Below, in pieces: positions 12,001 to 64,000 of a stretch of DNA of 64,000 nucleotides; the first letter of the stretch is position 1, and every line of letters begins with the position of its first letter. The translations under genes were made by a program, and so were the position numbers. The DNA comes from Aquila chrysaetos chrysaetos (lineage: Eukaryota > Chordata > Aves > Accipitriformes > Accipitridae). The notes below the pieces were generated by a model. The model made no database searches. It saw nothing but the letters and a program-made list of their open reading frames with translations, and was not told where the DNA came from. Location: assembly GCF_900496995.4 (NCBI RefSeq), contig NW_024470390.1:62001-126000 (forward strand), given 5' to 3'.

Positions 12001-15000
12001 GGCTCACCAGACCGAAAGCGAAACCTGGCTCTGCGGTCTCCTCTGTGGTGAGGGAAGTGACCCCAGGGCTGCAAGGCAAGGCTGGGCAGTTCTTACCACC
12101 AAACACCAAAAGTTTGGGCATGTATGAGGAGGAAATTGTGCTTTAAGAGTTGACGAAGGTTCTTTTCTTTCCTGTTTGCAAACAGCGGGCTGAAAATACT
12201 AAACCCTGTTCCCTTTTCTGGTGACCTTGCTCCACAGGTCCTGCCCGGTCTGTGCCGTCATCTTTCCTGGGTTTGGCAGGAGGGTTTACTTTTCCTGATG
12301 AGACCTCACCAGGATAATCCCTGGAATCAGGGTTGTGGCTTGCCTCTGCTGTGGGAGAAGGAAAACTGCTTGTAATCTCTTCAAAGTGTGTTTTCTGTCT
12401 CCTTTTCAAGAGCTTACCGGGATGTAAAGTTTGGTGTTTTCCTTCCTGTTACATTCATGCTGGCAAAAGGCTTTTCCTTACATCATGCTACCGTTTCCAG
12501 CTTCACAAGCGTGTGGCGTGCGTGCGAGATCTAAAAATAGGCTGACATCGAGTGTTATCGTGTCATAAAATCAAGTCAGAACTACTGTTGGCACGAAGCA
12601 TCCCCTGCGTGGAGCGGAGCGAGGATCTGCAGAAGACGTTGCGGCGTCTGATATTGTTGCCATCGGTTCGGCACGCAGAGCACAGCTGTTACTGAAACAC
12701 TTAAACATAGCTTTTGCCAAAAATATGTTCTTCTGTGTTCTCATAAACAAAATGGGGAAAAACGCCATCCAGCGTGAAAGCAAAATGGGGCTGTAAAACA
12801 TCTTTGTGCATTAGAAAGTTTCCTTGTTGCCTTTTGCTGTGTGTTTAACTTTTTGGCAGGCATTGTACTGTGAAGAGCAGCACTTTCTGGCTGCTTTTTT
12901 TCCCCTACGTATTTAGTTAATTTCTGGGACAACGTAATTTTTAATGTCGAAGATTAAAATGAACGTGGGATAATAACACTGAAGGCAATTTTTTCCCTGT
13001 CATTTTACAGCACTTTATGAGGCTCTTGTAAATGGAAAGAAAAATGCTTCGCCAAAGGTGACTTGTCGGATTTAGTGAAAGTGCCATGTGTTTTACCAGC
13101 TCCCTCTTTTTTTTTTTTTAATTATTTACAATGTGCGAGTAAGCACAGTTGTAACCACGTACGTGCACGTAATATCCTAAATCTTCCAGGGGTGATACCA
13201 GAAACGTTTGATTGTGGTGTCAAGACGGGATCAAATGCTTAAAATAACTTTGGGGGATGAGAATCGCGGCAGGGTTTGCTTGAAACACCCTGTCAGGTTG
13301 GCGGTTCCCTGGGTTTGAAAGAGGAGTGCGTCTCTGAAAATACTTGGAACATCTATTGCCACTTTCAGATTAATTAAACGGCACTGTAGTATTCTAATAT
13401 GTATGGATATGCCTTTAATGGCATTAAAGAAATGAGCTTATTTAAGGTGGTTTGTTCAAGGATGTTCACCCGCAGATCCCGCTGCATTTCTAAAGTGCTG
13501 CAGTCGTGATTTTGATTTTACAGAGGAGGAAAGAACTGAAAGCACATGAACGTTAAGTGCTGGGCAAGGTCAGTAGTGGGAATAGAGCCAGTGCTTTGGA
13601 GTTCTTCCTTCGTGACCCGTTTGCTGAATCACATTGTCTCTTTGTCCTACGACCAAATACTCTAAATATATCCACTGTGGATGGTGCTCTTGGTTGCGGA
13701 AATCAACTTTCCGCCTTGACAGTAGTGTTATGAGAGTGACTTGGACATGAAATAATGTTAGTAAGTGCTTACATTGACTTTTAAAGAATTTTAGGTGCCC
13801 GAACTTCTCTCAGCTTGTAGGTTTACAGCTGTGCAATACTCCTCACAGAATGGTGCAAGGATTGAAGTTTGAAAGTGTTTTGAAGACTTAAAGTCCTCTG
13901 CAGAGTGTGTGGGCCGGTCACTGCCAGGGAAAGTGGCGTTGTGTGTGTTGGCGAAATCATGTTTCTTAAGTGGAGTATGGCAAAAATGACAGGGAGAAAA
14001 ATAAATTCTAGAAGTTTGGGAGGGGGAAGAAAACAAACCAAGAAAATGTGCATTTTTATAATAAAAGCAGTTTCATCCAGCTCTTCTGAAGTGAAGTAAC
14101 AACAGAGGGGGTTTTGCATTTTCAAGGTGTAAAACCTGGCTCTTTACAAATAAGATTATGCAAAGCTTGCTATGCATACATAGCAAATGGAATTGACTGG
14201 AACGCTTGCTGGCTTCTTGTACTTTGTGCTTCAAAGTGCTGTGCTCCATCTGAACTTCAGAGCTCTCTCTAAAGGATGGTTCCTCCAGCTTCAGTTTGCA
14301 GCTCGACTATTGCATGAGGTTGAGGGTTGGGAGCCTTTCCTTCCACCGGCAGTCAGTGTCATATGTAACTTCCCAGTTAAAGAATAATTCAAACTAATCG
14401 TCAGGATGTTGAGGACACCCGTTTTTTTTTTCATTGGAGAGCCTCAAATATGATTTCCTGGGTACAGAGTTACATTAACACTTGTGAAATGCTCCTGTTC
14501 CCTGGTGATTTCGTATCTCTGTTCACGCTTTTCAAAGGGGGAGACCACATCATCTCCTATCACACCTGTGAGGTTAAGAACACTTTTCCTCTGCTTCCCA
14601 TCTCAGAAGAGTTTTAAATACTTGTATAGTCTTAAAACTCTTGTGATATAGGTAAGTGTATTTTTGGAGGTAGAAATAAATGAAAAATAATATATACCGA
14701 GTGCATGAGCTGGAGGGAGGATGCCATCCTCCCTGCAGTAAAGCTGCTGGAAGAGGGATGCTTGCAGGAGGTTGAGGTAGTTGGTTTTTTGAATGAAACT
14801 AACCCAGGGATGCTACTTTGTGGGTTAAAAAGGGGTGAAAATGGGCCGTCTCGGGTCACCGATTAATCACCCGTTTGGTGTTATTGGCATATTTTGGTTT
14901 CGTTCTACCCCAACAACAGTGAGGATGCACCAGATCCAGCAGCAAAACGAATCCTTTAGCGAATCCGTTATTTCTCTACTTTTTGTTTTACTTCAAATGC

Positions 15001-62000: not shown

Positions 62001-64000
62001 CTGAAGGAACCATTCTTTAGAGAGAAGTAACCATCCTTTAGAGAGAGCTCTGAAGCCCAGATGGAGCACAGCACTTTGAAGCGCGAAGTAGAAGGCGGCG
62101 GCAAGCATTCCAGTCAATTCCTTTTGCTATGTATGCATAGCAAGCTTTGCATAATCTTATTTGTAAAGAGCCAGGTTTTATACCCTGAAAATGTATAAAC
62201 CCCCCTCTGTCGTTACTTCACTTCAGAAGAGCTGGATGAAATTGCTTTTATTATAAAAATGCACATTTTCTTGTGTTCCCCCCCCCCCCCCCCAACCTCC
62301 TAGAATTTATTTTTCTCCCTGTTTTTTTTGCCATACTCCACTTAAGAAACAAACGATTTCGCCAAGACACACAACACCACTTTTCCTGGCACTGACCGGC
62401 CCACACAGTCCGCAGAGGACTAAGTCTTCGAAACACTTTCGAACTTCAATCCTTGCACTGTTCTGCGAGGAGTACTGCACAGCTGAAAACCTGCAAGCTG
62501 AGAGAAGTTCGGGCACCTAAAATTCTTAAAAAAAAGTCAACATAAGCACTTACTAACATCCTTTCCTGTCCAAGTCACTCTCATAACACTACTGTCAAGG
62601 CAGAAAGTCAATTTCTACAACCAAGAGCACCATCCACGGTGGATATATTTAGAGTATTTGGTTGTAGCAAGAAGAGACGATGTGATTCAGCAAACGGGTC
62701 ACGAGGGAAGAACTCCGAAGCACTGGCTCTATTCCCACTACTGACCTTGCCCGGCACTTAATGTTCGTGTGCTTTCAGTCCTTTCCTCCTCTGTAAAATC
62801 AAAATCATGACTGCAGCACTTTGGAATCACGGCAGAATCTGCGGGTGAACATCCTTGACAAACCACACCTTAAATAAGCTCATTTCTTTAATGCCGTTAA
62901 ATGCGTATCCATACATATTAAAATACTATGGTGCTGTTTAATTAATCTGAAAATGGCAATAGATGTATGTTCCAAGTATTTTCAGAGATGCACTCCTCTT
63001 TCAAACCCAGGGAACCGCCAACCTGACAGGGTGTTTCAAGCAAACCCTGCCGCGATTCTCATCGCCCAAAGTTATTTGAAGCATTTGATCCCCTCTTGAC
63101 ACCACAATCAAACACTTCTGGTGTCACCCATGGAAGATTTAGGATATTACGTGCACGTACGTGGTTACAACTGTGCTTACTCACACTTTGTAAATAATTA
63201 AAAAAAAAAAAAAAAAAAAAAGGGAGCTGGTGAAACACATGGCACTTTCACTAAAGCCTATAAGTCACCTTCGGTGAAGCATTTTTCTTTCCATTTACAA
63301 GAGCCTAGTAAAGCGCTGTAAAATGACAGGGAAAAAATTGCCTTCAGTGTTATCATCCCACATTCATTTTAATCTTCGACATTAAAAATTACGTTGTCCC
63401 AGAAATTAACTAAATACGTAGGGGGGAAAAAAAGCAGCCAGAAAGCACTGCTCTTCACAGTATGATGCCTGCCAAAAAGTGAAAAAACACAGCAAAAGGC
63501 AACAAGGAAACTTTCTAACGCACAAAGATGTTTTACAGCCCCATTTTGCTTTCACGCTGGATGGCATTTTTCCCCATTTTGTTTATGAGAACACAGAAGA
63601 ACATATTTTTGGCAAAAGCTATGTTTAAGTGTTTCAGTAACAGCTGTGCTCTGCGTGCCGAACCGACGGCAACAACATCAGACGCCGCAGCGTCTTCTGC
63701 AGATCCTCGCTCCGCACAGGGGATGCTTCGTGCCAACAGTAGTTCTGACTTGATTTTATGACACGATAACACTTGATGTCAGCCTATTTTTAGATCTCGC
63801 ACGCACGCCACACGCTTGCGAAGCTGGGAACGGTAGCGTGATGTAAGGAAAAGCCTTTCGCTGGCATGAACGTAACAGGAAGGAAAACACCAAACTTTAC
63901 ATCCCAGTAAGCTCTTGAAAAGGAGACAGAAAACATGCTTTGAAGAGATTACAAGCAGTTTTCCTTCTCCCACAGCAGAGGCAAGCCGCAACCCTAATTC
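59044..64000. other. Noncoding upstream part of copy B
   Basis: Reverse complement of about 12,325-17,277. No coding exon is seen; presumably BICRA 5' noncoding/intronic sequence. Small open frames here are the same chance frames found in copy A. Confidence 0.6.

Follow-up and report, generated by a model that had tools for sequence, protein, structure and literature searches.

An unplaced scaffold of the golden eagle assembly bAquChr1.4 (C98, 191,605 bp) carries a block of genes around BICRA twice, the second time inverted. We propose that the scaffold probably joins two anciently separated, non-allelic copies of the block that were wrongly chained together, and that the inverted layout is most likely a product of scaffolding. 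The window analyzed here is C98:62,001-126,000 of assembly G000 (64,000 nucleotides), and the copies were followed beyond it along the scaffold. We refer to the repeat stretch in contig 1, before the gap, as copy A and to contig 2, after the gap, as copy B. The two have the conserved block KPTN-NAPA-ZNF541-BICRA in common. Between the copies, NAPA and BICRA show strong constraint; ZNF541 is a destroyed pseudogene in copy A.

Layout of the two copies

A self-BLAST of the window pairs positions 12,324-24,933 with 64,000-50,893 reversed, in four blocks of 90-92% identity. The inverted, diverged repeat of the 5' half of BICRA noted in a preliminary description of this DNA is thus real, and its blocks within the window match. 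The length of 12.65 kb given for it does not hold, as the repeat continues past the end of the window: on the whole scaffold, copy A spans C98 4,153-86,969 (82.8 kb) and copy B, reversed, spans C98 112,839-191,605 (78.8 kb). In window coordinates, copy A occupies 1-24,969 on the forward strand, of which 12,324-24,969 pairs with B inside the window and 1-12,323 with B beyond the window end (C98 >126,000). Copy B occupies 50,839-64,000 on the reverse strand, as the start of contig 2, which runs on to the scaffold end.

The boundary between the contigs is a run of 25 N at window positions 50,814-50,838, the single gap of the whole scaffold, and copy B begins exactly there. The homology of contig 2 to copy A, although interrupted by unaligned stretches, begins at its first base and reaches nearly to its last, leaving no unique flank at either end. 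The sequence therefore fixes neither the direction nor the place of contig 2, both of which rest on the scaffolder. The junction of the inverted layout is absent from contiguous sequence; it is the gap itself. A 2-kb query from copy A, searched against the assembly, matched A and B only and gave no third copy.

Divergence and relationship of the copies

Over the core of the repeat (C98 11,200-86,980), the p-distance between A and B is 0.074 (7.4%) across 61,684 aligned columns. The ratio of transitions to transversions is 3.6 and there are 9 indel openings per 100 mismatches; we reject sequencing error as the cause of this substitution-dominated divergence. It is both deep and even: all kilobase bins with at least 500 aligned columns fall between 3.1 and 12.3%, a segment skipped by the chain of bins (C98 16,709-20,999) gives 8-12% when aligned separately, and there is no near-identical stretch in the core. 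Such a pattern is expected where recombination has ceased. For comparison, a heterozygosity of 0.248% is reported for a golden eagle from North America (PMC13326411), so that A and B differ about 30 times as much as the two haplotypes of another golden eagle. The preliminary description had judged the divergence higher than usual heterozygosity, which stands; its estimate of about 4% in a noncoding stretch falls short of the core value. It put coding sequence lower, and the long BICRA exon is indeed lower overall, with a synonymous divergence (dS) of 0.11. The pair does not have the appearance of ordinary allelic variation.

The outer 11-12 kb of copy B, outside the window, are of a different kind. 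Here the ratio of transitions to transversions is 0.94 with 58 indels per 100 mismatches, and the four outermost 2.5-kb bins hold 271 extra-base events in B versus 107 in A. KPTN, which lies in this zone, is well readable in A, and its B counterpart has many breaks. We accept sequencing error as the cause in this part: the end of B (C98 180,000-191,605) looks like unpolished long-read sequence, and it was left out of every statement about decay.

The long exon of ZNF541 provides a tree. In an IQ-TREE analysis, A falls outside a pair formed by B and the bird protein P0123, with a bootstrap value of 100. Among 541 compared columns, 10 residues support B with P0123, 1 supports A with P0123, and none supports A with B. 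The distance to B is 11% for P0123 and 32% for pelican, which suggests that P0123 comes from another bird of prey. If it does, the separation of A and B is older than the split of that species, which tells against both ordinary alleles and a recent duplication. A contaminant from a distant bird is rejected by the same tree, in which A, B, and P0123 form a group that excludes pelican and sandgrouse.

Constraint on BICRA and NAPA and decay of ZNF541

According to the preliminary description, both copies keep all four BICRA coding exons with their frames and splice sites. These exons, from the 5' half of the gene, are present with open frames in both, and the splice flanks of exons 2, 3, and 4 are identical. 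In A, on the forward strand, the first coding exon lies at window positions 17,488-17,526 (the interval of the located residues MDDEDGRCLLDVI; the exon end is not mapped), the second at 18,351-18,392 (located residues), the third at 18,821-18,886, and the long exon, open over 658 codons, at 20,381-22,354. Their counterparts in B, on the reverse strand, are at 58,220-58,258 and 57,354-57,395 (both by located residues), 56,873-56,938, and 53,456-55,435. This last exon is also open; its public annotation is that of a BICRA-like protein of Aquila chrysaetos, from a contig of 191,605 bp (P0001). The 3' half of BICRA occurs in A only (25,587-32,450, forward strand), with the GLTSCR1 domain at 29,444-29,566 and 29,998-30,111.

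Between the long exons of the two copies, the ratio of nonsynonymous to synonymous divergence (dN/dS) is 0.072, from 51 synonymous and 12 nonsynonymous changes over 658 codons. For NAPA it is 0.036 over 250 codons, with the last two exons left out. Compared with other vertebrates, mostly birds, five of the 12 residue differences in BICRA are clearly derived in A, none in B, and seven are undecided. By majority state, 10 of the changes fall on A and 2 on B, several of the columns being poorly filled. Of the two genes, the one modeled as BICRA-like (copy B) seems better conserved, and the complete BICRA lies on the copy with the dead ZNF541, a point that concerns users of gene models.

ZNF541 has had a different history in each copy. 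Copy B retains its start exon, its zinc-finger exon, an open long exon of 588 codons, and matches to later exons; the exon of B was named by protein homology, and Pfam gave only a weak unrelated match below the cut-off. In copy A, codon 16 of the start exon joins directly to a point about 36 codons inside the long exon. There 2,949 bp have been lost, with 9,088 bp in their place that include a retroviral gag frame. The 2,949-bp stretch of B is single-copy in the assembly, save two matches of about 35 bases. What is left of the long exon in A contains one stop and three frame changes, and dN/dS between the copies is 0.55 over 526 codons.

Base composition and insertions

Aligned sites with G or C in A and A or T in B number 1,843, versus 2,248 of the opposite kind (P = 2.6e-10), making A the GC-poorer copy. 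CpG dinucleotides number 1,848 in A and 2,137 in B. Copy A also has six large extra stretches totaling 13.4 kb; two of these insertions end in TG...CA and show target duplications of 5 bp. The extra sequence of B consists of a 202-bp stretch, the 2.9-kb ancestral stretch, and a 574-bp insertion resembling a long terminal repeat (58,469-59,042, reverse strand), which A lacks; two of the insertions in A are of its family. A copy on the W chromosome would be expected to gather transposable elements and to lose GC. Copy A displays both, its GC and CpG differences from B being unpolarized by an outgroup.

Possible location of copy A

The source bird of bAquChr1.4 was a female, sampled from heart muscle; the Hi-C data came from a male (PMC8499043). 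We suggest that the scaffold chains two contigs from different places in this female's genome, which would make the inverted layout an assembly product. The uniformly deep divergence and the tree show that A and B ceased exchanging sequence long ago. Copy B would be the regular copy of a GC-rich dot microchromosome, and copy A, with its lower GC, fewer CpGs, and more numerous large insertions, would lie in a place of low recombination. The female-only W would best explain the set as a whole: such a chromosome keeps dosage-sensitive genes and can dispense with a male-fertility gene, and in A the broadly used NAPA and BICRA are conserved and ZNF541 has been destroyed.

On this sequence evidence, we regard W linkage of copy A as plausible but tentative. 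The decay signature is one reason for considering it. A second is the fate of the genes: bird W chromosomes are reported to keep dosage-sensitive, broadly expressed genes (PMC7599627), and a W copy that retained NAPA and BICRA and lost ZNF541 would fit a chromosome with no use for a gene of male fertility. Zfp541-knockout mice are reported to be infertile as males and seemingly fertile as females (PMC8169937). The third is the 9.1-kb stretch that replaces part of ZNF541 in A. In the assembly, C27 is W and C37 is Z, and SPIN-family exons on both fit this; C28-C36 are presumably unlocalized W scaffolds, from their place in the record order between W and Z. Among the best listed non-self match rows (bits at least 1,434) for the first 4,855 bases of the stretch, 44 of 52 lie on C27-C31. 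These rows are pieces and not whole elements, and come from the best 40 of 2,576 candidates. Bird W chromosomes are in general rich in transposable elements, reported at 39.5% on that of the crested ibis (PMC10891136), so a W-rich element family is weak evidence by itself.

More guardedly still, we suggest that a dot-microchromosome segment (SLC8A2-KPTN-NAPA-ZNF541-BICRA-EHD2-NOP53) could have become W-linked in an ancestor of eagles that had yet to diverge from one or more other raptor lineages. The segment would since have kept genes such as NAPA and the chromatin-remodeling gene BICRA while ZNF541 decayed, and a false scaffold join would have hidden it.

About equally probable is an old autosomal paralogue: the block may have been duplicated in a raptor ancestor to another place on the same or another microchromosome, with the dosage-sensitive genes kept and ZNF541 lost for reasons unconnected with sex. 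All of the sequence evidence against allelism fits it equally well. A 1,160-bp insertion in A (C98 37,140-38,299), whose identities point to a young element subfamily, has its closest listed copies on C89 (99% and 98%) and C96 (98%), both unplaced; the next is on C31 (96%), and all other listed copies are at 93% or below (best 40 of 7,627 candidates). The curators, moreover, left C98 unplaced and did not assign it to W. Less readily explained is the keeping of two strongly constrained genes in both copies at dS of about 0.1, which is not specially expected of a redundant copy, nor is the loss of a male-fertility gene in particular.

Two of these points, the insertion and the curators' decision, weigh against a W location of copy A, and further observations weigh against it or against the broader account of two old copies of which one decays. 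The remaining 8 of the 52 match rows lie on C2 (2), C4, C6, C12, C15, C37, and C95, i.e., on autosomes, Z, and one unplaced scaffold (C95). The GC asymmetry is smaller at non-CpG sites (1,167 versus 1,310), and neither it nor the CpG difference is polarized. Indels of at least 20 bp inside the aligned blocks show the opposite trend, with 6 longer in A and 15 longer in B. As for the genes, the 3' half of BICRA in A has two apparent frame breaks in GC-rich sequence, at about 25,914 and 31,330 of the window, reflecting either error or early decay. NAPA in B has two insertions where indels start to rise, one of 2 bp within an exon and one of 4 bp at the end of another. These affect exons 6 and 8 (A, C98 12,640-13,450; B, 177,430-178,240), which are otherwise identical in the compared stretches; the insertions are likely errors, with decay as the alternative. 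The last exon of ZNF541 in B has a frame change and a stop relative to alligator. The raptor origin of P0123 is presumed, and a single search with a 231-amino-acid frame of the A pseudogene found no A-type ZNF541 fragments in other species. Finally, Zfp541 is reported to be expressed in mouse oocytes as well (PMC8169937).

A SNAP search of the assembly returned A, B, and a gene on C8 that we take to be NAPB, and a search with the GLTSCR1 domain returned the BICRA of A and a gene on C13 that we take to be BICRAL. No Z copy of NAPA, of GLTSCR1-domain sequence, or of NOP53 was found in these searches, nor was a continuation of B beyond the gap, as the GLTSCR1 domain and NOP53 matched only A, the relative of GLTSCR1 on C13 apart. 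In a search for second copies of genes of 19q13.3, AP2S1 was found on C105 only, weak relatives apart, and KDELR1 and RUVBL2 gave paralogue-like matches at most. Loci of avian dot microchromosomes are reported to drop out of assemblies often (PMC12954441), and the four known microchromosomes of the golden eagle had still to be identified in its assemblies by 2026 (PMC13326411).

Relation to known systems

The nearest parallels to a W-linked copy A are the neo-sex chromosomes that crested ibis and parrots are reported to have derived from microchromosomes (PMC10891136). There, too, a microchromosomal gene block has a diverged partner and the W side gathers transposable elements. Those cases, however, involve whole microchromosomes with a mapped Z partner, whereas in the eagle W linkage is a candidate only and no Z copy was found. 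Songbird W chromosomes are reported to have received segments of Z by DNA transposition (PMC7692361), and these resemble the eagle block in that several genes were copied together as DNA and the dosage-sensitive ones survived as others were lost. The source of those segments was Z, whereas in the eagle, a raptor, the source would be a dot microchromosome and the linkage is a proposal. The block shares with the dot-microchromosome genes of PMC12954441 a GC-rich, tandem-repeat-laden character and a tendency to be missed in assembly; that paper is concerned with gene loss and intron repeat expansion, and NAPA and BICRA do not appear in its main text. In harpy eagle, chromosome painting is reported to show an intact Z and partial hybridization on W, with a fusion of an autosome to Z unsupported (PMC12985040). 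Among the literature matches listed, no title or abstract opening described the block as duplicated or sex-linked in birds.

If copy A is W-linked, raptors took dot-microchromosome genes onto W, and the pair would allow gene retention (dosage-sensitive genes) and loss (male fertility) on a chromosome confined to females to be tested cleanly, and would supply a sex-linked marker. If it is an autosomal paralogue, it represents an old duplication of strongly constrained genes in an often-missed part of bird genomes. In either case, a raptor reference scaffold probably contains a false join and, with it, a false inversion.

Less probable explanations

A genuine inverted duplication of adjacent segments, with the scaffold order correct and the boundary in or at the gap, is unlikely. 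The assembly was built with Falcon-unzip, purge_dups, scaff10x, BioNano, and SALSA2 (PMC8499043), and some linked-read, optical-map, or Hi-C signal, from the methods named there, must have joined the contigs. Nevertheless, no junction is present in the sequence, contig 2 lacks a unique flank, and the reads of two similar loci may mislead a scaffolder. Contig 1 has long G and C runs near the gap, and GC-rich sequence ends both contigs at the far end; ends of this kind suggest that loss of coverage, rather than a duplication boundary, terminated the contigs.

Two very old alleles of one locus, maintained by trans-species polymorphism or in a non-recombining supergene and left unpaired by purge_dups, are less probable again. 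By homology, contig 2 falls within contig 1, which is what one would see of a haplotig, and no separate continuation of it through EHD2 and NOP53 was found. Divergence at some 30 times heterozygosity, a core with no near-identical stretch, and a branching of A before B and P0123 all argue the other way. Ordinary heterozygosity, i.e., a plain haplotig, is ruled out by 7.4% against 0.248% and by the ZNF541 tree. The pair resembles the divergent contigs that long-read assemblies falsely keep or join in that one is contained by homology in its neighbor and starts at a gap; it is unlike them in a divergence far above heterozygosity.

That one contig comes from another raptor contaminating the sample is very improbable: A and B are indeed related as two species might be, but BUSCO duplication in the assembly is 0.7% (PMC8499043), and one of the A insertions has a copy of 99% identity on another scaffold of this assembly. 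A copy from a germline-restricted chromosome, on which NAPA is reported in zebra finch (PMC6884545), is rejected, since the sample is heart muscle of an eagle and such chromosomes, in a literature that as far as consulted concerns songbirds, are removed from somatic cells. Among the origins raised in the preliminary description, then, a misjoin and a real old copy from another locus are favored; a germline-restricted chromosome is incompatible with the taxon and the tissue, an adjacent segmental duplication lacks sequence support for the adjacency, and the plain haplotig is contradicted.

Neighboring genes and minor observations

The genes along copy A and onward to the gap are SLC8A2, KPTN, NAPA, ZNF541, BICRA, EHD2, NOP53, and a connexin, which, the connexin apart, we take to be the order of human 19q13.3. 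SLC8A2 in A has an 804-amino-acid open frame with three Pfam families, and an SLC8A2-specific domain occurs once on C98 and twice on C2. The analysis bears out the earlier view that the spacer between the repeats holds the 3' half of BICRA with its GLTSCR1 domain, EHD2, NOP53, and a connexin. All are present in contig 1 only: exons of EHD2 at 36,140-41,427 (forward strand; EHD_N and DUF5600 domains within these open frames), a NOP53 exon at 45,064-45,189 (forward strand), and the connexin open frame at 47,418-48,341 (reverse strand; PF00029, E = 1.1e-82). Six open frames, including the long BICRA exons, had no Pfam match.

NAPA, located at C98 11,700-21,800 and 169,300-179,200, is also reported to be among the earliest-identified genes of the germline-restricted chromosome in zebra finch (PMC6884545), which is probably a coincidence. 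Long insertions resembling mitochondrial COX1 occur on Z (C37:66,004,698-66,006,038) and on chromosome 2 (C2:50,118,779-50,120,107); a separate mitochondrial contig was not among the five matches. A minisatellite-like stretch at window positions 40,780-40,910 has many matches, several near contig ends and some on the unplaced C89, C92, C95, and C101, among the best 39 of 139 candidates.

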